Source: a virus. From it: DNA of 42,960 bases. Both the position numbers and the translations under genes were made by a program. The notes under the pieces were generated by a model. It was not told where the DNA came from and ran no database searches. It saw nothing but the letters and a program-made list of their open reading frames with translations. Positions 2,028-42,960 of this stretch are shown here, piece by piece (position 1 is the stretch's first letter; each line of letters begins with the position of its first letter). The stretch lies in the IMG/VR virus record IMGVR_UViG_3300036791_001259, positions 1 through 42,960 of that record; one strand, 5' to 3'.

Positions 2028-2261
2028 TCACGGTGCGATCTCCGACAGGATGTGGCGCACCGACATCCCGACCGCGCGGCCGAAGGCGATGACGGTGTGC
2101 AGGTGGATGCGCTGGCGGCCGTTCTCGATCAGCGCCAGGTTGTTGCGGGTGATGTGCATGCGGGTGGCGGTCGCCGCCTGGGTCAGGCCGGCGTCCTGGC
2201 GCAGCTCCTGCATGTGCCGCCCCAGCTCCGGGTAGATTTTCTCGATGGTCTTTTTTCTCAT
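2028..2261 (-). CDS. XRE/Cro-family HTH regulator, 77 aa
   Basis: The protein is a compact helix-turn-helix of the Cro/CI (XRE) type: LGRHMQELRQDAGLTQAATA forms helices 1-2 and MHITRNNLALIENGRQRI holds the recognition helix and the conserved L-I-E-N-G turn. It is one HTH domain with almost nothing else, typical of phage Cro-like or excision-type regulators. ATG 2261 overlaps the ERF stop as ATGA (2258-2261), so the two are translationally coupled. It is a candidate for binding the operators at 5257-5295 and 10298-10540. Confidence 0.85.
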   Translation of the reverse strand: MRKKTIEKIYPELGRHMQELRQDAGLTQAATATRMHITRNNLALIENGRQRIHLHTVIAFGRAVGMSVRHILSEIAP

Positions 2262-3181
2262 GTCCTTGGCTCGATGATCTCGCCGCTCTCCTGGTCGTAG
2301 CTTTCGGCAACAGCGGCGTCCCGCATGAGAGCCTTGTCGGTCTCCTCCATGGCCCTGCGCAGTTCGGTCCCCAGGCCCTCCACCACCTTACGTTCGCTGA
2401 GTGTGTCCAAGCTGCGCCAGAACAGGCGGAACTCGCTGGTGCCCCTGGCGGCGGCGGCCCGCGCCGCCTTCTCGAGCGCCTCCACCTGCGGGATGGTGAG
2501 GGTGGCGTTGGGCGGCGGCGAACCGGCAGCGGCCGTTGCTGCAGCGGGGGCAGGCTTGGAGGGCGGCGGGGTGCTGGTGGGGCGGGCCATGGCATCCGGC
2601 GCCGCGACCGGCTCTTTGGCACTGAGACCGTCATCATCGACGGACGCCGCCAGTCCCAGCGCCGCCTTCAATGCGTACCTCGACAGATAAGTCAGGGTCG
2701 AGCCCATGGCTTGGATGGCGTTTTTGTTGCCCGAGGTATCGGCGCCGGCCGACAGGGAGTTTCTGATGGCATGTCCGAGTTCATGCGCGATCACGCAGGT
2801 CACTGTGATCCGGTTGGGCTCGGTCATGGTCTCGAACCGGTGCGACAAGCCGTATTTGCCCAGGATCGGCGCCACCGTCGAGACCACCTCGGCCAGATCC
2901 TCATGCTTGTAGGCGGTGCGCGAGCCACCCCCCCTGGAATCGAACCCCACCTGGCGGTTTTTAATCAAGGTCGGCATTTCCGCGCAGGCGCCGGCCATCG
3001 CCTTCTCGAACGCCTTGCGGGCGATGTTGGCTTCCCACCGCTCCTGCAGCCCCATCAGTTTCTCGATCATCTCGATCGGTGCGCCGTGGTCCAGCGCATT
3101 GGCGATCATGTTCATGGGGTCGATCGGGTCTACCGGCCGCGCCTGCATCGGCACCGGCTGGCCTGGGTTGGGGTCACTCAT
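2258..3181 (-). CDS. erf: ERF-family single-strand annealing recombinase, 307 aa
   Basis: Residues 40-185 match the ERF superfamily: an N-terminal helical part with ERWEANIARKAFEKAM, the block YKHEDLAEVV, and the signature AIQAMGSTLTYLSRYALKAA followed by an acidic DDDG. ERF proteins anneal complementary single strands in phage recombination, typically with a partner exonuclease, here YqaJ at 5233. A Pro/Ala linker (about 195-230) leads to a helical C-terminal domain. Start 3181 has AGGAG upstream and overlaps the preceding VPLPA-CTERM stop as ATGA, so ATG 3181 is chosen over in-frame starts inside that gene. Confidence 0.9.
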   Translation of the reverse strand: MSDPNPGQPVPMQARPVDPIDPMNMIANALDHGAPIEMIEKLMGLQERWEANIARKAFEKAMAGACAEMPTLIKNRQVGFDSRGGGSRTAYKHEDLAEVVSTVAPILGKYGLSHRFETMTEPNRITVTCVIAHELGHAIRNSLSAGADTSGNKNAIQAMGSTLTYLSRYALKAALGLAASVDDDGLSAKEPVAAPDAMARPTSTPPPSKPAPAAATAAAGSPPPNATLTIPQVEALEKAARAAAARGTSEFRLFWRSLDTLSERKVVEGLGTELRRAMEETDKALMRDAAVAESYDQESGEIIEPRT

Positions 3182-3702
3182 TTTGCATCTCCTGTCGCGC
3201 GTCTGCGCCGGGCCAAGGTGTAGACGCCCAGCAACCCGCCGAAGAACATCGGCAGCGCGGCCGGGACGGGCGTTGTCGCGGGAGTGACGGTCAGCCAAGC
3301 CTGCTCGCTGACCGTCGCAGTGGTAGGAAAGCCCTCGCCAAGAGGTTCACACTCGCCGTCCATCTGCACGACACACCCGGGAAGCACGTAATAGTTGACC
3401 CACAGGATGTAGTTCGCATCCACCCCGACAAGGTGGCGACCAGGACGCCGAAAGACGAACGAGGCCGCATAGAGCGTGTCAGAATCCGGCACCAGCTGCG
3501 CCCCGTCAGCATAAAACTGCTCCCCCGCAAAAATGGGCGCGCCCTCGATCGCAATGACATTAAAGACAGACAGCTGAGCCGGCTCCCCAACCTGAACCGA
3601 ATCAGGGGCGAAAAACTCGATGAAACCGTCCGTCACGGAGGTCGCCCCAGCCTCCGGGCACAAAGCCAAACTCAACACCACACCCCCAGCAAAAATCCGC
3701 AT
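3178..3702 (-). CDS. Exported protein with VPxPA-type PEP-CTERM sorting tail, 174 aa
   Basis: ATG 3702 has GGAGG eight bases upstream. The N terminus is a signal peptide (MRIFAGGVVLSLALC, cleavage likely after Ala-Gly-Ala). The body is beta-rich with one Cys pair (LPGCVVQMDGECEP). The C terminus has the three parts of a PEP-CTERM signal: TPVPAALPMFFGGL, a hydrophobic span, then ARRRR. In bacteria such tails are processed by exosortases and the protein is released or anchored at the surface. The stop overlaps the ERF start (ATGA), so it belongs to the phage recombination operon. No exosortase gene was seen here, so a host enzyme would be needed. The specific function of the body is not recognised. 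Confidence 0.85.
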   Translation of the reverse strand: MRIFAGGVVLSLALCPEAGATSVTDGFIEFFAPDSVQVGEPAQLSVFNVIAIEGAPIFAGEQFYADGAQLVPDSDTLYAASFVFRRPGRHLVGVDANYILWVNYYVLPGCVVQMDGECEPLGEGFPTTATVSEQAWLTVTPATTPVPAALPMFFGGLLGVYTLARRRRATGDAK

Positions 3703-3721
3703 CAGATCATCCTCCGTGGAA

Positions 3722-3745
3722 TAGCCCACCGCACGGGATGGGCTA
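3722..3745. other. Inverted repeat between the two VPLPA-CTERM genes
   Basis: TAGCCCA (3722-3728) and TGGGCTA (3739-3745) are perfect 7-bp inverted arms around a 10-base loop. It lies in the 60-bp gap between two leftward genes, with no T-run on either side. It could be an attenuator, an mRNA processing hairpin or a DNA operator. Confidence 0.45.
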
Positions 3746-3762
3746 CGCTGTGCCGTTTGTGT

Positions 3763-4398
3763 TTACGCTTTACGCTGGCGGCGCCTGGCCAGTTGGTAGA
3801 TGCCCATCAGGCCGCCGAAGAACATCGGTAGCGCAGCAGGCAGTGGCGTGGCGGCGGTGCCGGCAATATCCACCCTATAATGTTCAAAATCGGTGATGTT
3901 GCCGCCGGTGTCGATCACTGTGAACAGGTTGATGCTCTCGCCCTTGAGCGCCTCGAGGGTGAAGTTCGCCGGCTTGTTCTTGTCGAGCGCACCCAGGTTG
4001 AACGTGAAGGACTTGGTGCCGCCGCCCGGTTCGTTCGCCGTCACGAACACCTTGGCGGTGCCGGTGCCGTTGAGCGAGAAGACGTCGGTCGCGGTCGGCA
4101 GGACGGTAGTGCCCGCCGAGTCGAACACCTGGACCTGGAGGTCGGAGGTGTTCGTGATCTTGATGTCGTTGCCGCTCTTGGCGCCGGAGAAGCCCATGCA
4201 GCCGGCCAAGCAGCTAAAGTCGACAAGACCTTGATGCTGGCCGTTGAACGAGCCAACGGCGAGATTGGTCCCGTTGAAGCTGTCGAACACGACGTTGTCG
4301 CCGGTGCCGCTCAACTTGTCGAGGATGACGACGTTGGCTTGCGCCGTCCCTAACCCGACGCCAAGCACGGCGACGGTAGCCAGCAATAGTCGCTTCAT
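3763..4398 (-). CDS. Exported VPLPA-CTERM sorting-domain protein, 211 aa
   Basis: ATG 4398 has a perfect AGGAGG eight bases upstream. A signal peptide (MKRLLLATVAVLGVGLGTAQ, cleavage after Ala-Gln-Ala) is followed by a beta-rich domain with FSCLAGCMGF, the only cysteines (CxxxC). The C terminus is a full VPLPA-type PEP-CTERM tail: TPLPAALPMFFGGL, a hydrophobic stretch and ARRRQRK. This family is typical of alphaproteobacteria and is sorted by exosortases. Its tail is nearly the same as that of the next gene, suggesting duplication or swapping of the sorting signal. It lies 46 bp downstream of the YqaJ exonuclease gene on the same strand. Surface remodelling, superinfection exclusion and biofilm effects are possible roles, all inferred. 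Confidence 0.88.
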   Translation of the reverse strand: MKRLLLATVAVLGVGLGTAQANVVILDKLSGTGDNVVFDSFNGTNLAVGSFNGQHQGLVDFSCLAGCMGFSGAKSGNDIKITNTSDLQVQVFDSAGTTVLPTATDVFSLNGTGTAKVFVTANEPGGGTKSFTFNLGALDKNKPANFTLEALKGESINLFTVIDTGGNITDFEHYRVDIAGTAATPLPAALPMFFGGLMGIYQLARRRQRKA

Positions 4399-4444: not shown

Positions 4445-5233
4445 TCACTCTCCCGCTCGCAGCGAGAGGCGGCCGGCACGATCACGGGAGATCTTCACCC
4501 CATGCCCGAAACAACGCTTGGCCTCGGCCGGCACCAGACTCTTGAGCACCTTCTCGGAATCCTTGGCGGCCTCGGCGGCGCCGTGGGTCTGCAGCCAGCG
4601 CAGTGCTTGCGCCGCCCACTTCTCATTGCCCTGCATGTTTATCTCGGCGGTCGGTTCGATCGGCACCGGCACCGGGGCCAGCTCCACCGGCGGCTTGCGC
4701 AGGCTCACGCACATCATGAAATAATCCCCGCGATCGATCATCTGGGCGATGTAGGGCGGGTGGCCGCTGATGTACTCCACGACCGGCTCGTTGGCGCCCA
4801 TGATCACCGAGAGCGCGCATTGCGTGGCGCCGGTCACCATCATCTGCCATTGCATTTGCGGCTGGTAGCGGTCGATGACGATCTCCAGCGGCTCGCGGCC
4901 GCCGGTGTGCTTGCATTCGACCGGGCATTTCAGCTCGGGATCCCAGCCGTCGAGGGTGGCGGCCGCCCAATGGTATTCCTCCGAGATGGCGACGGTGCCG
5001 CGCTGGGTCAGCAGGCGCTTGTTCTTCTTTTCGTACCAATCGAGGTTCAATTGCTCGGTCGCCGAGCCGAGCTGCACCGGCCACACGTCGTCCAGGTTTT
5101 CCTCCGGGACTTCCCCGATCATTTCTTTATACAGGCGCAGAATTTCCGCAGCGTCGCCTTTCATCAGGACACCGATTCTGGAAGCCGTGAGCTTGCCCTC
5201 TCGTTTGGCAATTTGCTCCGCGCTCAAGCTCAT
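4445..5233 (-). CDS. YqaJ-family viral recombinase/exonuclease, 262 aa
   Basis: The protein has the lambda-exonuclease-like PD-(D/E)xK fold of the YqaJ family: N-terminal GKLTASRIGVLM, GSATEQLNLDWYEK, catalytic LDG (Asp95) and VECKHT (Glu106, Lys108), then a Gln-rich helix YQPQMQWQM. YqaJ enzymes resect double-strand DNA 5' to 3' and hand single strands to an annealing protein, here the ERF product three genes downstream. It is the first gene of the leftward operon and starts just beyond the palindromic control region 5257-5317. AAGGAG lies upstream of ATG 5233. Confidence 0.9.
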   Translation of the reverse strand: MSLSAEQIAKREGKLTASRIGVLMKGDAAEILRLYKEMIGEVPEENLDDVWPVQLGSATEQLNLDWYEKKNKRLLTQRGTVAISEEYHWAAATLDGWDPELKCPVECKHTGGREPLEIVIDRYQPQMQWQMMVTGATQCALSVIMGANEPVVEYISGHPPYIAQMIDRGDYFMMCVSLRKPPVELAPVPVPIEPTAEINMQGNEKWAAQALRWLQTHGAAEAAKDSEKVLKSLVPAEAKRCFGHGVKISRDRAGRLSLRAGE

Positions 5234-5770: not shown

Positions 5771-6208
5771 GTGGCCAAGACCAGGTGGACGATCGCGCAA
5801 GACCAGCAACTGCTCCAGCTTGAACGGGCTGGCTATTCGGCAAGTCTGATAGGTGAACAGATCAAAAAAACCCGCAATGCCGTGATCGGCCGCTCGCAGC
5901 GGCTGCGCGGCTACAGGCGTCGCAGCAAGGCAGCGCCGCGCGAGCAGGAGACCACCGTGCAGAAACCGACCAACCCGATCAAGCCGGCGGCACCGGCACT
6001 GGCGCCCACCCTGGTCATAGCCCGCGAAGACGGGCGTAAACGCCCTGAGGATGACGGCCGGCGCCTGATCTCGATCTTCGAACTGACCGAGACGACCTGC
6101 AGGTGGCCGTATGGCGAGCGGTCGCCGTACCTGTTCTGCGGAGCGCCGCGGCATCCGCACGGCAGGCCGCCCTATTGCAAGCAGCACGCCCGCATGCACT
6201 ACCGCTGA
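5771..6208 (+). CDS. gcrA: GcrA-family cell-cycle regulator homologue, 145 aa
   Basis: GTG 5771 is preceded by GAAAGAGGG. The N terminus is the GcrA DNA-binding region (WTIAQDQQLLQLERAGYSAS, then KKTRNAVIGRSQRLRG), followed by a basic/proline linker and the C-terminal GcrA block with CRWPYGE, FCGAP and YCKQHARMHY. In alphaproteobacteria GcrA works with sigma-70 at promoters bearing methylated GANTC. Phage copies are thought to redirect host cell-cycle transcription. It is in the rightward early operon. No CcrM-type adenine methylase is present; the only methylase here is a C5-cytosine enzyme at 10924. Confidence 0.9.
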   Translation: MAKTRWTIAQDQQLLQLERAGYSASLIGEQIKKTRNAVIGRSQRLRGYRRRSKAAPREQETTVQKPTNPIKPAAPALAPTLVIAREDGRKRPEDDGRRLISIFELTETTCRWPYGERSPYLFCGAPRHPHGRPPYCKQHARMHYR

Positions 6209-10852: not shown

Positions 10853-10923
10853 GAACATCGGTGTTTCAGTACCTCTCCGGGGGTGCCTGGTCCCCCCCGG
10901 GGCGCGCCGCGGCGCCCAGGCCG

Positions 10924-11793
10924 ATGGGTCCGCGCGGCTACCCGCAAGTCGCCCCCTCCATCCCCCGCCCCAAAAAATTCTGCGAGGATTGTGGCAGGGC
11001 GGACGGTGAGGCATTCTCTGTCTGGGGTGCTGGGATATTGTGGGAGGTGTGTCTGGTGCGGTCTTTGGCGGTTGACCTGTTCTGCGGGTTGGGTGGTTGG
11101 GCTGAGGGGCTGATGGCTGAGGGCTATGATGTCGTCGGGTTTGACATCGAGCTCCACGTTTACGGCCAGCACCGGTATCCGGCGCAGCTCGTCATTCAGG
11201 ACGTGCTGACCTTGCACGGCTCGCAATTCAAGGACGCTGCGCTGATCGTGGCATCGCCGCCGTGTCAGGCCTACAGCTATAGAGCCATGCCATGGTCGCG
11301 AGCCAAGGCACTGCCGCCGCCGGACAACACGCTGTTCGAGGCGTGCTTCCGCATCCAGCGCGAGGCGTGCGCGGCGGCCGGGCGGCACATTCCGATGGTG
11401 GTCGAGAACGTGCGCGGGGCGCAGAAATGGGTTGGGCGCGCGCGCTGGAACTTCGGCAGCTTCTATCTGTGGGGCGACGTGCCGGCGCTGATGCCTGTCA
11501 TTGGCGGTCGCGTGAAGCTCAAGGGCGGCGATGTCGGATGGCGCGAGCGAGGGCCAGGGCGCCAACTGCAGGACCGCGCCGTCGCCCACAACACGACCAG
11601 CGGCAAAGGGCGCAACCCGGATGGGCGCAAGGGCGTTGGCTCCGGCGCGGCATGGTTCGACGCCAATCTGTGCGTCTATCCAAGCAGCAGTCCGCGCCGC
11701 AAAGCCGCATCGGCCATGATTGCGAAGATTCCGTTTGATCTGGCGCGCCACATCGGGCGCTCATTGCGGGAACCGCAAGGGGTCGAGCGATGA
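10924..11793 (+). CDS. C5-cytosine DNA methyltransferase, 289 aa
   Basis: Canonical C5-methylase motifs appear in order: motif I AVDLFCGLGGWAEGL, motif II VGFDIE, motif IV VASPPCQAYS with catalytic Cys114, motif VI VVENVRG, and motif X IPFDLARHIGRSL. The target-recognition region is short. Before motif I lies FCEDCG with a later Cys43, possibly a small zinc knuckle. The start is uncertain: GTG 10843, ATG 10924 and GTG 11056 are all in frame, and 10924 keeps the Cys cluster. It likely protects phage DNA from restriction; no cognate nuclease is nearby. It heads a rightward run of small genes leading to the 2OG oxygenase. Confidence 0.9.
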   Translation: MGPRGYPQVAPSIPRPKKFCEDCGRADGEAFSVWGAGILWEVCLVRSLAVDLFCGLGGWAEGLMAEGYDVVGFDIELHVYGQHRYPAQLVIQDVLTLHGSQFKDAALIVASPPCQAYSYRAMPWSRAKALPPPDNTLFEACFRIQREACAAAGRHIPMVVENVRGAQKWVGRARWNFGSFYLWGDVPALMPVIGGRVKLKGGDVGWRERGPGRQLQDRAVAHNTTSGKGRNPDGRKGVGSGAAWFDANLCVYPSSSPRRKAASAMIAKIPFDLARHIGRSLREPQGVER

Positions 11794-13072: not shown

Positions 13073-14131
13073 ATGACCCCCCTCCTGCTCGATAATTTCT
13101 TCCCGGCTGAACTGTACGATCGGCTGCGCGCGACCGTGCGCGAAGCGCCGATGAGCTACGGCTCCAAGTCCAACCGCAACACCGACCCGCACGGCCACTG
13201 GTCGTGGAAGCCGATCCACGACTCGACCCACAATCTGGCCGATCTGAGCGATCTACTCAACAGCACACACAATTTATGGGCCACGAATGAGGGCTGGAAA
13301 TTTCTGCGCATCAATCGCTGCAATGACATGAAGCTGGTGCGCTGCTACGCCAACGGCTACACCTACGGGACGGACGGCTACTTCCATACCGACAGCGAGC
13401 GCGCCGGCGACCTGACCGTCATCATCTACATTTGCGACGACTGGCCGATGGACTGGGCCGGCGAGACCGTGTGTACGGATGGAAAGACTTACTGGTCCTA
13501 TCTGCCGCGCCCCAATCGGGTGGTGATCCTGCCCTCCGACATGCTGCACGCTGCTAGAGCAGTAAGTAGAAAATGTACATCGCTACGGACTACGTTGATG
13601 TACAAGGCGCGGCCGGCCCGGTCGGAAACCTTTGAGCATCAATCCGCTTGGCTGCGCGACCACGGTGCGCTCGCCATCAAGCACGCGACCGGCTCGCTGC
13701 ACGACCACCTGATGCGCTGCCATCAGCTGCTGGACGATCGCAAGACGACGCCGCCGTTTTCATGTTTATGGACCGCCGGTGGGCTGCACTCGATCTATGG
13801 CACCAATGCTTTCGCCAAGGTGCTGGTCGAGCCGACCGAGAGCAACCGTGCCGAGGTGGCCGACGCCTTCGGCAAGGCGGCCGAGGAGCTCGCCTACCTG
13901 TTCCATCTCATCGACCGCCCCAAGACGCTCGATCGCGAGATCAGGGAGGGGATGGACGTCGCCTACCGCTTCGCCGCCAACGGCTTCATCCCCAACGAGA
14001 AGTTCCGGGCGCTCCAGCTCATCGAGTGCGCCAACCTGGCCGACCAGAATAAGCTCGCGGGGTGGCCCAACCTGGCGAAACTGTGGAAGGGAAAAAGTGA
14101 TGCCGCCGCATCCGTATCCTCCGGCCTATAA
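13073..14131 (+). CDS. 2OG-Fe(II) oxygenase fused to an HD-like (DUF6817-type) domain, 352 aa
   Basis: Residues 1-180 form a prolyl-hydroxylase-type dioxygenase: FHTD with His105 and Asp107, WAGETVC as the strand before the core, LHAA with His159 as third iron ligand, and Arg172 as probable 2-oxoglutarate anchor. Residues 195-320 look like a separate metal-binding helical domain: IKHATGSLHDHL, then AGGLHSIYGT with His239, as in DUF6817 HD-like proteins. Oxygenases of this type hydroxylate protein, small-molecule or nucleic-acid targets; the substrate here is unknown. The gene uses the shared 17-base leader and sits near a cytosine methylase, but it does not show TET/JBP signatures. Confidence 0.85.
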   Translation: MTPLLLDNFFPAELYDRLRATVREAPMSYGSKSNRNTDPHGHWSWKPIHDSTHNLADLSDLLNSTHNLWATNEGWKFLRINRCNDMKLVRCYANGYTYGTDGYFHTDSERAGDLTVIIYICDDWPMDWAGETVCTDGKTYWSYLPRPNRVVILPSDMLHAARAVSRKCTSLRTTLMYKARPARSETFEHQSAWLRDHGALAIKHATGSLHDHLMRCHQLLDDRKTTPPFSCLWTAGGLHSIYGTNAFAKVLVEPTESNRAEVADAFGKAAEELAYLFHLIDRPKTLDREIREGMDVAYRFAANGFIPNEKFRALQLIECANLADQNKLAGWPNLAKLWKGKSDAAASVSSGL

Positions 14132-37205: not shown

Positions 37206-37376
37206 ATGCCGAGCTCGACCCCAAAGCAGAAACGGTTCATGGCGGCGGCGGCGAACAACCCCAAGTTTGCGCGCGAGGCCGGCATTCCGACCAGGGTTGC
37301 CCGCGAGTTTCACGCCGCCGATCGCGGCACGGGTCGCACGAAGAAGCGCCGTAGTCGGCGCGGCAGGAGGGGTTGA
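37206..37376 (+). CDS. Small basic phage protein, 56 aa
   Basis: The sequence MPSSTPKQKRFMAAAANNPK, then FAREAGIPTRVAREF and an Arg-rich tail, matches a small conserved phage family typified by QxRFMAAAAxNPxFAxxAGIP. GGAGAG precedes ATG 37206. Its stop overlaps the next start as TGATG. Function unknown; the family is usually found in virion gene clusters. Confidence 0.75.
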   Translation: MPSSTPKQKRFMAAAANNPKFAREAGIPTRVAREFHAADRGTGRTKKRRSRRGRRG

Positions 37377-37723
37377 TGAGGGCTTTCTGGCTTGTCGCAA
37401 TGTTGCTGGCCACCCCGGCCAATGCCCAACAGGCGCGCTTCAACTGGCTTGGCTACTGCCAGATAACGTCGCTGGCCACGGCCAAGCCGATGGTCACCGC
37501 TTCCTGCTCCACCGGAGCGGTGCCGCCGACGCCGGTGGTCGCGGAAATATGCGTGAGCGGCGCCGCCGTGCGCTACACCAGCAGTCCCACCGTCACCCCG
37601 ACCGCCAGCCTCGGCATTCCGGTCTCCACCAATACCTGCTTTCAGTATTCCGGGCCGGTCAACAGCCTGCAGTTCATCCAGCAGGCTGCCACCGCCACTC
37701 TTGACATCGAGTTCTTCCAATGA
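37376..37723 (+). CDS. Exported small tail-region protein, 115 aa
   Basis: ATG 37376 overlaps the upstream stop as TGATG. The first 17 residues (MRAFWLVAMLLATPANA) are a clear Sec signal peptide with an Ala-x-Ala site before Gln-Gln. The mature protein is beta-rich with four cysteines (GYCQI, ASCSTG, EICVSG, NTCFQY), an even number suited to disulfides. The stop overlaps the start of the fibre gene. The function is unknown; linkage suggests a partner of the fibre. Confidence 0.7.
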   Translation: MRAFWLVAMLLATPANAQQARFNWLGYCQITSLATAKPMVTASCSTGAVPPTPVVAEICVSGAAVRYTSSPTVTPTASLGIPVSTNTCFQYSGPVNSLQFIQQAATATLDIEFFQ

Positions 37724-39186
37724 GGGCGCCCAGCGCGTTGATCGCGCTCGCGCTGTTGGCGGGCGTTGCCCAGGCGCAGATCGGCCCACCCGGCACCGCG
37801 TCGATCGGTCCTGGCGGCGGTGGCGGCGGCGGTGGTGGCGGCGGCGGCGGTACCGTCACCAGCATTGCCACCGGCTGCCAGGCGACCGGCGGCACCATCA
37901 CCACCACCGGCACGATCTCGACCCAATTCATCCTTTCCGCATCTTCGCCGGTCGTCACCACGCCCTATACCATCCAGGCCGCCGATGGCTGCAACAACCT
38001 GCTGCTGGGCACCGGAGCTTCGGTGCTGACCTTGCCGGCGACCGTCACTGCCGGCTTTGGCAACGGCAACTACTTCACCATCGACAACCGCTCGGCCGGG
38101 GCGGTGACGATGAACGTCACCACCAACAACCTTGACGGCGCGACGGCGGTCACCATTCCGGCCAACGGCACCATCTCGTTTCAGAGCGATGGCACCAATT
38201 ACCACTACACGCAGGCGCCGGCGGCCGGCGGCGCCGGCATCACCCAGCTTACCGGCGACGTGACCGCCGGCCCCGGATCGGGCTCGCAGGTCGCCACCTT
38301 AGCCGCCACCACCATCAACAAGATGGCGGTGACCGCGCCGGCCACCGGCTCCACCATCGCGATCGCGGACGGCACCACCTTCGCATCCAGTACTTCAATG
38401 ACGCTGGCCGCCGGCACCACCAGCCAGACTTGGACATTCCCTGCTGTCACCGGCGGCACCATTGCCGTTCTCAGTGTTGGCAACACATTCACGCAGCCTG
38501 TTAATGTCACCAACAGCGCCACAATTCTCAGTAACGAACTTGCGATACGCAACACCAGCACCGCTAATGGGGCGGCAGCGGGCATATCGCTTAGTAACAA
38601 TGCTGCGCTGAATGTGGTGTCTATGTTTTTGAATGGTAGCAACACCACTACCGGCAACAACACTTCTTCATTCACTATTAACAACACCGAAGCGACGGCT
38701 ACCGGAGGAATCTTTCTTCAGGCGCAGGGCGTCAATGCCCTTACCATCAGCAAGGCGGCGGCGGTCGGCTTGCCTTCGATTGCTTCCTCGTCGGCCGCGA
38801 CCACCGGGACCGTCTGCTGGACCACCGTCACCGGTAACCTGACGGTCGACACCACGGTCGCCTGCCTGTCCTCGCTGGAGGAATTGAAGGACATCAAGGG
38901 GCCGATCACCGGGGCGCTGGACGAGATTTCGCAGCTCGAGCCGTTCTGGTACGAATGGAAGGAAGGCACGCCGCAGCGCGCCGGCGACACCCACGAGCAG
39001 CCGGGGCTCGGTGCGCACCAGACCGAGCGCGTCGACCCACGGCTGGCCGGCTACAATCCCGAGGGCAAGCTGATCGGCGTGCGCTACCAGCAGCTCGTCG
39101 CGCTGCTGATCGCCGGCATGCAGGAGCAGCAGCACCAGATCGACGACCTCAAGGCCCTTATCGGCCGGCGCGCGGAGGCGCGGTAA
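37720..39186 (+). CDS. Exported fibre protein with S74 intramolecular chaperone domain, 488 aa
   Basis: The start overlaps the upstream stop (ATGA). Residues 1-19 (MRAPSALIALALLAGVAQA) are a Sec signal peptide, followed by a run of 13 glycines. The body is Thr/Asn/Gly-rich beta structure as in trimeric fibres. The C-terminal 100 residues are the Peptidase S74 chaperone: SSLEELKDIKGPITGALDEI, LEPFWYEWKEG, then GLGAHQTERVDPRLAG and a C-terminal helix. S74 domains fold the trimer and cut themselves off at the Ser before the domain. It has four cysteines. An export signal on such a protein is unusual. Confidence 0.85.
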   Translation: MRAPSALIALALLAGVAQAQIGPPGTASIGPGGGGGGGGGGGGGTVTSIATGCQATGGTITTTGTISTQFILSASSPVVTTPYTIQAADGCNNLLLGTGASVLTLPATVTAGFGNGNYFTIDNRSAGAVTMNVTTNNLDGATAVTIPANGTISFQSDGTNYHYTQAPAAGGAGITQLTGDVTAGPGSGSQVATLAATTINKMAVTAPATGSTIAIADGTTFASSTSMTLAAGTTSQTWTFPAVTGGTIAVLSVGNTFTQPVNVTNSATILSNELAIRNTSTANGAAAGISLSNNAALNVVSMFLNGSNTTTGNNTSSFTINNTEATATGGIFLQAQGVNALTISKAAAVGLPSIASSSAATTGTVCWTTVTGNLTVDTTVACLSSLEELKDIKGPITGALDEISQLEPFWYEWKEGTPQRAGDTHEQPGLGAHQTERVDPRLAGYNPEGKLIGVRYQQLVALLIAGMQEQQHQIDDLKALIGRRAEAR

Positions 39187-39189
39187 TCA

Positions 39190-42100
39190 ATGCTCAATAG
39201 GGTGTTCCTGCTGTTCGCACTGCTCGGCGCGTTGCTTGGGCACGCGGACGCCCTGCAGTTCTATGTGTCGTCGACCGGTTCGCTCCCCGCGATGCCCTGG
39301 CAGTCGGCCCAGCAATGGGGCGGCGGGCTCTATGCGCACCAGAGCCTGGCGGCCAATACCGGCGTGCATCTGCTGGCCGGCGACGGCGGCGGCGTCTATC
39401 TGCAAAGCTCGGTGGATGGCTCCTGGCACCAGCTCATGACCTTCGCCGGGTTGGCTCCCGCCACTTGCGGAGGCGTTGCCTGCATCGGCATCACCGGCAC
39501 CGGCACCACGCAGGCATTTCAGCCCTGGGTCGGCGCCAACGACATATGCGCCTCGCCGGCCAGCTCGGGGCGCGCCTGGATCGTCTGGAACGGGTACATC
39601 TTCCGCAGTAACAACGTGAATCCGGCCAACCCGGAGGCCACCACCTTCATCAACACCAACCAGCTTCCCAACGGCGGGTTCACCAAGAGCACGGACAGCA
39701 ACAACACGACCAATCGGGTGACCGGGCCATTTCTCGGCTGCGATCCCAACAACGCTAGCCATGTGATATTTGGCTCGCAGGGCGCCTCGGCCACGACGCC
39801 GCAGGTATGGGAAAGCCTCGACGACGGCTCCACTTTTGCGGCTTACCCGTCTGGCGCCATCCCGGTCGCGCCGTTCACCAGCAACGGCAATATTTACATC
39901 AACGCTTTCGATCCTGCTTCCGGGGTTACCGGCACGGTCACCACGGCGTCCGGGCTCACCGGCACCGGGCTGACCAAGACCTGGTGCGTATTCACCAGCG
40001 CCGCCGGCACCGGCCATGTGTTTTGCACCGTCGACGGCGGCGTGACCTGGTTTCAGGCCGGCACCGGAGGACCGACGACTGCCGCTCACCTGGAGTTCAA
40101 TCCGACCAATCATACCTTGTTCGTGGTCGACAATGCCTCGCTTGCTTCGTTGTGGAGCTGCAGCATAACAAGCTCCAGTTCTTGCACCACATGGACTACG
40201 CTCATCACCGGCTCATCTGGCACTTCGGTGGCCTGGATGGCCTGCGATCCTGTCACCCCGACGCATTGCGCTGCCTTGGATGGCGGCGGGCAGCTTTATG
40301 TTTCCACCGCTTCGGGGGCGGCCGGTACCTGGAGTTCAGGCTTTACTTACAATATCGCGGCCGGTGATTCCGTATGGTACGCGAACACTTTGTTCACGTT
40401 TTCGTCGTCCTACAACATCGTGTTCGATTCGGCGCATCCCGGAATCATATACGGCGATCTTGGGCAGGGGCATTACAAGACGACATTTCCGAGCGGCTCT
40501 TTCACATGGACCACCAACTTGCTGGGATCCATGCACGCTTCGGCTTCCTCCGTGGGCATATCCGCCTCGTTGAAGCCGCTTTACGGGTCGCAGGACATCA
40601 GCCTGTGCAACATCGACATCACGATGCTGCCGCAGACCGTTTGCGGCCGTCTCAGCATTTTCAACGGCTTGAAGTACACTTCCTATGTGGGTCCTTCGGT
40701 GTCGGACCCGACCTACACGGTAGCGGAGGTGGCTGCCAACTTTTCGGCCAATGGCGATCTTTCCGGCTGGTCGCGCGACGGGTTTCTGACCGATTACCAT
40801 CCTTGGAACCGCTGGGAAAACGAGGTTGTCGCCAATGTCGGGATTTGCGGCTCGATCGGCAGCGGTAATTGCGCGACGGCTTCCGGCAATGTGCGGGTGA
40901 CGATCAATCCGTCCGGGACGGTTCATGACACGTCTGGCCTGACGACCTGGGTCAATGGGCAAGGCACTATTTTGTGCAGTATTTCCAGGTTTCGTATCAA
41001 TGGGACGAATGTGCTTTATAACGGAAACACCCCGATCAAGAGCTGTTTCCCGGTTTCCGTTGTCAGCTCATCGCAGTTCGATCTGATCGGCGCGGCTTAC
41101 ACCAGTGCCTTGACGAGCATCACCAGTCAGATCAATGGCGCTCCAGGGTCTTACTTTTTTTTCGATCCTACTTATCCGGGGTCGAACCTTTCCTACGCGC
41201 GCAACATCACCTCGGTGGGCACGGATGCCGGCAATGGGCTCATTCAGGTGTGCATGTTCGACACGCGCGGGGCTCCAGTGTCCCCTATGCTCATAGACAT
41301 AACCGGCATCATCGACAACACCGGGCTGTCGCCGGTCAACGGCCGCTATATTATCGAGAACCCTTCTTCCAGCAGCATAAACGGACTTCGCTGCATGGAT
41401 CTCGGTCCTACGTCGACGCTTCCGGGCGGGTTCAGTTATGTCAGCGGTGGGACCGGGTTGACTTATGTTCAAGCCGGCGGGGCGCTGGCGGCTTCTGGAA
41501 ATTTTCTTGTTGTTGCCGCTGGCAGCAATGAGACTCCGCGCTGTTCCACCGATCTTGGAACCAGCGTGGCCGGCTGGAGCGACATTGTGAATCCAAGCCC
41601 GCCGTTTCTGGACACGGTGGCGAGCGGCGGGACATCTGGGTCCACCAGGATAACGACCGCGGGCAGCGGCATCGGGACTGCTGCCACCATCCTCATGCAG
41701 ATGGACGATGGCCGTTTTACTTATATTCTTCCAGAAGGAAATCTTTCGATCGGCTCTGGAACGTATACCACTGGGTCGGGAATGGTCACGCTTACGCTGC
41801 CGATCGAAACAGCGGCCATTACCGGCGATCAGGTGACACTCACTGCGTTGACGGGCACCGGAGCCTCTGCGCTCAACGGAACATATACACCCATAACGGT
41901 CACCGGTGGCGGCACCACGGTTTCGTTCATGGCGACCGCTGGCCTTGGCGCCATAACGATCACGGGCGGCACCTTCAACATCAGCGGTGCCGCCGTTCCG
42001 TTCGCGCGCGTCCCCAGCGCCTCCCCGGCCAACACCCACTATTCTATTCCTCCAGGTCGCACTGTTGCCAACGGCACGGGCATTCTCGATATTTCTCGCG

Positions 42101-42960
42101 GGTGGCCGCCCAACAATTTTCTGTTCGGCAAGGTGATCGCCGCCGACAAGGTTACGCCCAATCGGTTCTATCTGGTCAATTGGAAAACCGGCTTGTTGGC
42201 GTTTACCGGTTGCGGTTCACCTGTGCTCGTCAACGCAATGGCACGCCCCAATGGCTGGCTGCAGTTTGGCGGCACCAACGCCAAGCTCGATTCGGTTCCG
42301 GGCGAAGCAGGACACTTATTTTACACCGATGGCCCGCAGGGCAGTCCCTCGCATGGCAATGGGAGCCATAAGCTGCAGCGCACCTGCAACGGGGTGACCA
42401 ATTCTGCGGGCACTGGCAACGCTTTGCCGGGTGCGGTCATGCACGGCACCTTGGGCACATTCGCGCCGGCGACCTTTGGCTTTGGCATCCACGCTCCGGG
42501 CAAAACGTATCCGTCCATTGCGTATGTCGGGTTTTACGATCCAACAGGGAAGAATCTGGAAGCCAATGCCGTATATGGCATCTGGCGGTCGACGGACGAT
42601 CCCAATCACGGCAACACCGGCGCGGCTGCAGCATGCTTCGATTACAATGGCCAGCTCAATGGCGCGCAAATCATGGGCACAAATCTCACGTTCACCAGCG
42701 TGACTGCCGGCGCTGCGGGCGTCGGCGCAGTGGCGATCGGAGACGGTATTCTCGGCGTGAACGGCGACGTGGCGACAGGGACCAGGATCGTTTCCGGCAG
42801 CGGGCTGTCCTGGCAGGTCAATATATCTCAAACCGTTCCAACAGAGACGATGACGGCCGGCGGCACGTTCCAAAGCATTGGCACTTGGTTGACGGCCATC
42901 CCTGGCCAGCCGGCTTGGGGGAATCAGATCAACGATTTTGCTTGCGATCCGGTCGTTTTT
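39190..42960 (+). CDS. Exported Asp-box (beta-propeller-like) tail spike candidate, 5' part of a gene crossing the contig ends
   Basis: From ATG 39190 the frame is open to the end of the window and continues at base 2 to TGA 179-181, giving 1274 residues over the circular join. GGAGG (39174-39178) precedes the start. The N terminus is a textbook Sec signal peptide: Asn-Arg, then a Leu/Phe/Ala-rich core, ending in Ala-Asp-Ala near residue 21. The first third has Asp-box-like turns (SLDDGSTF, CTVDGGVTW) and WD40/BNR-like blades. The rest is Gly/Thr/Ser-rich beta-type sequence. I count 24 cysteines in the whole protein, often as neighbouring pairs, which suggests disulfides. Position after the fibre gene suggests a host-range or glycan-binding spike. 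An export signal is unusual for a virion protein, so a secreted or surface role is also possible. Confidence 0.85.
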   Translation, partial: MLNRVFLLFALLGALLGHADALQFYVSSTGSLPAMPWQSAQQWGGGLYAHQSLAANTGVHLLAGDGGGVYLQSSVDGSWHQLMTFAGLAPATCGGVACIGITGTGTTQAFQPWVGANDICASPASSGRAWIVWNGYIFRSNNVNPANPEATTFINTNQLPNGGFTKSTDSNNTTNRVTGPFLGCDPNNASHVIFGSQGASATTPQVWESLDDGSTFAAYPSGAIPVAPFTSNGNIYINAFDPASGVTGTVTTASGLTGTGLTKTWCVFTSAAGTGHVFCTVDGGVTWFQAGTGGPTTAAHLEFNPTNHTLFVVDNASLASLWSCSITSSSSCTTWTTLITGSSGTSVAWMACDPVTPTHCAALDGGGQLYVSTASGAAGTWSSGFTYNIAAGDSVWYANTLFTFSSSYNIVFDSAHPGIIYGDLGQGHYKTTFPSGSFTWTTNLLGSMHASASSVGISASLKPLYGSQDISLCNIDITMLPQTVCGRLSIFNGLKYTSYVGPSVSDPTYTVAEVAANFSANGDLSGWSRDGFLTDYHPWNRWENEVVANVGICGSIGSGNCATASGNVRVTINPSGTVHDTSGLTTWVNGQGTILCSISRFRINGTNVLYNGNTPIKSCFPVSVVSSSQFDLIGAAYTSALTSITSQINGAPGSYFFFDPTYPGSNLSYARNITSVGTDAGNGLIQVCMFDTRGAPVSPMLIDITGIIDNTGLSPVNGRYIIENPSSSSINGLRCMDLGPTSTLPGGFSYVSGGTGLTYVQAGGALAASGNFLVVAAGSNETPRCSTDLGTSVAGWSDIVNPSPPFLDTVASGGTSGSTRITTAGSGIGTAATILMQMDDGRFTYILPEGNLSIGSGTYTTGSGMVTLTLPIETAAITGDQVTLTALTGTGASALNGTYTPITVTGGGTTVSFMATAGLGAITITGGTFNISGAAVPFARVPSASPANTHYSIPPGRTVANGTGILDISRGWPPNNFLFGKVIAADKVTPNRFYLVNWKTGLLAFTGCGSPVLVNAMARPNGWLQFGGTNAKLDSVPGEAGHLFYTDGPQGSPSHGNGSHKLQRTCNGVTNSAGTGNALPGAVMHGTLGTFAPATFGFGIHAPGKTYPSIAYVGFYDPTGKNLEANAVYGIWRSTDDPNHGNTGAAAACFDYNGQLNGAQIMGTNLTFTSVTAGAAGVGAVAIGDGILGVNGDVATGTRIVSGSGLSWQVNISQTVPTETMTAGGTFQSIGTWLTAIPGQPAWGNQINDFACDPVVF
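42834..42960. repeat. Terminal direct repeat, right copy
   Basis: Identical to bases 1-127. When the two copies are merged the genome is a 42,833-bp circle and the 1274-aa spike gene becomes intact. Confidence 0.9.

Follow-up and report, generated by a model that had tools for sequence, protein, structure and literature searches.

Why should a soil-type phage carry, inside its recombination operon, two genes for secreted proteins that end in a host-type sorting tail, and where would the products go? The window (the whole stretch of DNA analysed, 42,960 nucleotides) is a complete phage genome. Its two ends share an exact direct repeat of 127 nt, and one ORF runs on across the ends; the terminal repeat and the end-spanning ORF together indicate that the genome is circularly complete. 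Our answer, which we place slightly above an even chance, is that the two proteins, gpA and gpB, are early phage proteins with host-like sorting tails that are delivered to the surface by the exosortase of the host, where they coat the infected cell and exclude other phages. The anatomy of the proteins and their early placement are supported, and the reading of the tail as a sorting signal is supported in part.

Anatomy and early placement of gpA and gpB

The minus strand of the window reads, in order, YqaJ/RecE-like exonuclease, gpA, gpB, ERF, and HTH regulator (Table 1). The profile matches (phrog_434, PF09588, and phrog_155) confirm the original prediction that the two genes sit between YqaJ and ERF. 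A good SD (AGGAGG) lies upstream of gpA. Read from the sequence, the TGA of gpB overlaps the ATG of ERF in an ATGA at 3178–3181, and the stop of ERF overlaps the start of the HTH gene, again through an ATGA. As both overlaps are of this kind, the second gene was correctly described as start-stop coupled to ERF.

Table 1 Features of the gpA–gpB region and of a nearby regulator gene, in window positions
Feature	Position	Strand	Basis or remark
HTH_31 transcriptional regulator	2028–2261	-	PF13560, 4e-13
ERF single-strand annealing protein	2258–3181	-	phrog_155, 2e-28
gpB (P0001), 174 aa, ATG start, companion secreted protein (predicted)	3178–3702	-	Tail class as in gpA
gpB sorting-type tail TTPVPAALPMFFGGLLGVYTLARRRRATGDAK	3181–3276	-	TIGR03370 12.1 bits, TIGR02595 13.8 bits, both below cut-off
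Tail-coding direct repeat D2, copy 1 (gpB)	3205–3281
gpB signal peptide MRIFAGGVVLSLALCPEAGA	3643–3702	-	Sequence inspection
gpA (P0002), 211 aa, secreted (predicted), C-terminal sorting-type tail	3763–4398	-	In phage-only family
gpA sorting-type tail ATPLPAALPMFFGGLMGIYQLARRRQRKA, TM helix 189–210	3766–3852	-	PF07589 11.6 bits, below cut-off
Tail-coding direct repeat D2, copy 2 (gpA)	3781–3857		77% identical to copy 1
gpA core, predicted all-beta sandwich, residues 22–178	3865–4335	-	AlphaFold2
gpA signal peptide MKRLLLATVAVLGVGLGTAQA	4336–4398	-	Sequence inspection; position conserved in 57-row alignment
YqaJ/RecE-like recombination exonuclease	4445–5233	-	phrog_434, 4.7e-32; PF09588, 1.9e-12
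GcrA-like cell-cycle regulator	5771–6208	+	PF07750, 1.2e-22 among window proteins; ORF assigned by eye

Each protein starts with a Sec-type signal peptide and closes with a TPLPAALPMFFGG/transmembrane/Arg-rich tail, an anatomy that was claimed at the outset and that sequence inspection confirms. The N-termini are MKRLLLATVAVLGVGLGTAQA/NVV in gpA and MRIFAGGVVLSLALCPEAGA/TSV in gpB (the bar marks the predicted cleavage site). The signal peptides thus end AQA/N and AGA/T, respectively, with no lipobox Cys at +1. In both tails the motif TP(L/V)PAALPMFFGG is followed by a hydrophobic helix and an Arg-rich end, and the C-termini of the two proteins are TPLPAALPMFFGGLMGIYQLARRRQRKA and TPVPAALPMFFGGLLGVYTLARRRRATGDAK. 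At the DNA level the tails share 77% identity over 77 nt (direct repeat D2); the cores of gpA and gpB are unrelated to each other.

The window proteins score below the curated cut-offs: gpB reaches 12.1 bits against TIGR03370 (cut-off 25.35) and 13.8 bits against TIGR02595 (cut-off 16), and gpA reaches 11.6 bits against PF07589 (cut-off 20.7) and does not match TIGR03370. Therefore, gpA and gpB are not formally filed under TIGR03370. A relative with the gpA core and a PEP tail (L092) passes both NF035944 (36.1 versus 35) and TIGR02595 (23.2 versus 16), and NF035944 is matched at E ≤ 0.01 by 10 of 57 gpA-family members. The proposed check with PEP-CTERM/VPLPA-CTERM models thus succeeds for same-core relatives and fails for the window proteins themselves. 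Judged by sequence, gpA and gpB probably act like TIGR03370 members.

In the AlphaFold2 model of gpA (57 natural rows; mean pLDDT 90, core blocks mostly 93–98), residues 22–178 are predicted to form a beta-sandwich and residues 189–210 a C-terminal helix. The best solved matches found by Foldseek are carbohydrate-binding modules and a flagellar sheath protein, with E-values of 2e-4 to 1e-2 and TM-scores of ~0.3–0.4. The matches of the model to CBM29/4/6/61 are weak (TM <0.5) and give a hint that gpA may have a CBM-like fold.

The early placement is a feature of the family. gpA shares its orientation with replication or recombination genes (DNA polymerase A, SNF2 or UvrD helicase, YqaJ, ERF, RecT, and PD-(D/E)XK, within the fetched flanks) in 28 of 30 loci. 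Where amidase, terminase, or portal genes are compared, gpA runs the opposite way in 14 of 17 (orientation contrast, p = 2e-7). These counts were made by hand, and terminase, portal, and one AAA/RecA-like cluster were named by eye because the representatives had no Pfam match or were not scanned. Gene orientation thus extends the claim that the genes are not late to gpA loci at large. One locus has, upstream of gpA, a gene for an intein-containing SNF2-type helicase (L060:3569–6004).

GcrA is an alphaproteobacterial regulator, so the GcrA-family protein of the window points to an alphaproteobacterial host. No integrase is recognisable among the 45 predicted proteins of the complete genome; the phage is therefore probably lytic, and a role during lysogeny, as once suggested, finds no support. 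The genome also encodes a C5-cytosine methylase (10903–11793). The ORF at 13073–14131(+) is labelled 'DNA endonuclease V' by phrog_274; its start resembles a 2OG-Fe(II) oxygenase (PF13640 is matched among the window proteins), and the label may be wrong. Three late tail-fibre-like ORFs, at 37373–37723(+), 37720–39186(+), and 39190–42960(+), begin with Sec-type signal peptides (MMRAFWLVAMLLATPANAQQ..., MRAPSALIALALLAGVAQAQ..., and MLNRVFLLFALLGALLGHADAL..., respectively), which is odd for virion proteins, and one window protein matches the Peptidase_S74 chaperone.

A phage-only core with exchangeable tails

Single-sequence search retrieves 14 relatives of gpA from viral contigs and alignment-based search at least 120, of which 80 were kept. 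Every complete relative examined (56 representatives below 90% identity) keeps the signal peptide and the C-terminal sorting-type tail, and the phages that carry gpA are largely unrelated to one another. Two scans of ~85,000 bacterial and archaeal GTDB genomes give no intact homologue. The sole genomic trace is a 76-nt fossil in a Rhizobium MAG (L095:1283–1360), 91% identical to gpA of phage L023 and followed by a stop codon; it sits where an autotransporter-like ORF region begins. gpA is absent from INPHARED phages and plasmids, has no meaningful family in PHROGs, and gives only chance matches in a PDB sequence search. For gpB, viral contigs, phages, and fetched loci hold no relatives outside the tail.

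Close gpA pairs have dN/dS values of ~0.05–0.4 over the core and mostly <0.5 over the tail; gpA is under purifying selection. The low values for close pairs, together with at least 120 viral relatives, indicate that gpA is not a chance ORF. A chimeric or contaminated assembly, raised in the original prediction as a way in which it could fail, is excluded by the complete circular genome with its terminal repeats, the viral relatives, and the lack of an intact gpA in the ~85,000 genomes.

Four tail classes occur on the gpA core: PEPxxW(A/G)MMLLGF, PLPAALP (the class of the window), xPxxGAGLPG, and PLPGAVWLF. On a maximum-likelihood tree made from the core only, with the tail columns excluded, the tail class changes at least 13 times, and nested swaps are well supported (for example, L053). 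Many phages encode a second or third tail protein, often on the same strand and directly adjoining gpA. Among the phage contigs that encode more than one tail protein, 28 of 28 are concordant in tail class, as compared with a mean of 11.2 and a maximum of 19 in 5000 shuffles; a few of these contigs are near-duplicates. The D2 repeat of the window and the locus L043 look like tail DNA copied between neighbouring genes, so the agreement within a phage may reflect more than host selection alone.

Pattern scans of viral contigs yield 31 stretches of PEPxxWxMMLLGF, 22 of PLPAALPxF, and at least 120 of PGPxxGAGLPG, most of them on signal-peptide proteins with cores other than that of gpA; the 22 PLPAALPxF stretches answer the earlier call to look for the same tail in viral genomes. 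Scans for three tail classes brought up many further phage families, a sign that phage envelope proteins of this kind form a large class still lacking annotation. Many more families with a signal peptide and these tail classes are found in L186–L264 and L133–L185, among them 'LGGQxWT...VPGGNQPxNxPCxIC' and 'ATINLVxxxLxFTG...PAQGTV'. Companion proteins of three phages (L047, L050, and L063) share their core, with E-values down to 2e-95, and their tail class with a protein of the cellular genome G662, which suggests, at the level of sequence, that surface proteins are exchanged between host and phage.

Proposed sorting by the host exosortase and its alternatives

The 37 phage records encode no exosortase; any sorting must therefore use host machinery. 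Tail class and exosortase are related here by the phylogenetic-profile reasoning that gave rise to the PEP-CTERM/EpsH proposal (PMC1569441). Profile A3, built only from phage tails of the PLPAALP type (the window type), finds tails in 21 of 367 genomes of the alphaproteobacterial class. Exosortase (PF09721) is present in 18 of these 21 and in 33 of the 346 A3-negative genomes (p = 1.9e-14). The host proteins with A3 tails whose complete sequences were read each start with a signal peptide, and their cores are unrelated. A separate sample at order level contains two genomes with exosortase, G023 (8 A3-tail proteins) and G034 (20), as well as a tail-rich draft, G003, in which no exosortase is detected. 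Reliance on a host exosortase, as originally predicted, is thus backed by tailed secreted proteins, by the lack of a phage exosortase, and by a tail class that tracks the host enzyme, and is weakened by the scores of the window tails below the cut-offs.

GAGLPG, the commonest phage tail class, is found in 2 of the 367 alphaproteobacterial genomes, one of them with exosortase. G662 has six GAGLPG-tail proteins (loci L313, L314, and L316) and no detected exosortase; it could have an unrecognised sorting partner or be an incomplete draft. The rarity of GAGLPG in the sampled genomes and the case of G662 suggest that the link to exosortase may not extend to every tail class.

These observations are compatible with the following sequence of events. 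gpA and gpB would be expressed early in infection and would leave the cytoplasm of the infected cell by the Sec pathway. The C-terminal tail would mimic the signal by which the host sorts its own exosortase substrates; the host exosortase would then recognise it and deliver the proteins to or beyond the outer surface. There they may coat the already infected cell or bind its exopolysaccharide or receptor. Further phages would be excluded and, as we guess, progeny would be spared adsorption to debris. Superinfection exclusion is our leading guess for the role of gpA and gpB, and expression of exclusion proteins early in infection is well documented among phages (PMC9586334).

The same sorting could serve another end: the proteins might remodel the exopolysaccharide, floc, or biofilm matrix of the host, keeping infected cells together or loosening the matrix for progeny release. 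PEP-CTERM proteins do act with EPS (overexpression of PepA restores flocs and raises bound EPS; PMC9850573), and the predicted beta-sandwich of gpA weakly matches CBM29/4/6/61 folds. However, the TM-scores are below 0.5, the likeness to PepA lies in the tail, with the cores unmatched, and no enzyme domain is detected; we regard matrix remodelling as unlikely. A quite unlikely reading dispenses with exosortase and takes the tail as an ordinary C-terminal membrane anchor that holds gpA and gpB in the inner membrane, facing the periplasm, where they might block DNA entry as SieA does or play some other part in the envelope. Such a topology needs no more than a signal peptide and a C-terminal helix, the window tails score below the curated cut-offs, and GAGLPG-type tails occur in G662, where exosortase is not detected. 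But motif, helix, and basic cluster are kept, the tails fall into discrete host-type classes with full concordance within phages, same-core relatives pass NF035944 and TIGR02595, and class switching would be superfluous for a plain anchor. Since the window tail class tracks exosortase in alphaproteobacterial genomes, the ordinary anchor that the original prediction set against its own reading is improbable for this class; it is possibly likelier for GAGLPG-type members.

Finally, gpA and gpB could be host-derived cargo or mis-binned host DNA, that is, cellular exosortase substrates acquired by chance and with no phage role. The cores shared between the three companion proteins and the G662 protein speak for such a source, but gpA is absent from ~85,000 genomes, lies beside phage genes in many unrelated phages, and evolves under purifying selection, and the terminal repeats show the window genome to be complete. 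A host-cargo origin, which we consider extremely improbable as an explanation of the locus, is contradicted for gpA; for gpB, which has a core without relatives, it may hold.

Surface delivery of exosortase-sorted early proteins can be extended, tentatively and with rather less than even confidence, to a general proposal: phages of exosortase-bearing alphaproteobacteria may share a diverse set of early secreted proteins with interchangeable, host-matched tails, hijack the exosortase (for GAGLPG, perhaps an unrecognised enzyme), and re-coat the cell, with cores re-addressed by tail swapping as phages move between hosts. A phage-only core that retains its signal peptide and exchanges host-type tails amounts to an experiment by nature on the specificity of sorting signals; the tail class should predict the sorting system of the host of each phage, and gpA-type proteins offer small, testable sorting substrates. 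GAGLPG, an abundant class not matched to an enzyme in these data, may be an entry to a sorting system that has escaped recognition.

Comparison with known systems

Both PEP-CTERM proteins and exclusion proteins of phages have been described before; phage-encoded exosortase-type substrates appear new: no description of phage-encoded PEP-CTERM or exosortase substrates was found in the open-access literature, of which coverage is incomplete, and a paper that combines phage with exosortase/PEP-CTERM wording concerns host genes (PMC12642866). PEP-CTERM and VPLPA-CTERM exosortase substrates (TIGR02595, TIGR03370, and NF035944; Haft et al. 2006, PMC1569441) resemble gpA and gpB in the signal peptide, the two-proline motif, the hydrophobic helix, and the C-terminal basic cluster, as well as in having diverse cores without homologues and, for the window tail class, in co-occurring with exosortase. 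Unlike them, gpA and gpB come from the early region of a phage whose genome encodes no exosortase; a single gpA core bears several tail classes, and the window tails fall below the cut-offs. The flocculation protein PepA (NF033554) is likewise secreted and has a PEP-CTERM tail, but its core is unrelated to that of gpA and the likeness is confined to the tail. Homology between the gpA and PepA cores (a match of 0.012) was considered and rejected; nine tail-less cores fail to match PepA, which is matched only by the control that retains its tail.

SasX of staphylococci, an LPXTG surface protein encoded by a prophage, relies on a C-terminal sorting enzyme supplied by the host. It is thus, as gpA and gpB would be, a surface protein encoded by a mobile element and handled by a sorting enzyme of the host. 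Unlike gpA and gpB, SasX belongs to a Gram-positive sortase system and does not lie in an early recombination operon; we know of no tail-class switching for SasX. The exclusion proteins Llp of T5, Cor, and Ltp of S. thermophilus phages are, like gpA and gpB, small, secreted phage proteins, are expressed early or from a prophage, and act in the host envelope (PMC9586334, PMC3952083). They are lipoproteins, whereas gpA and gpB, for which exclusion is only proposed, lack a lipobox Cys and instead carry a C-terminal sorting-type tail.
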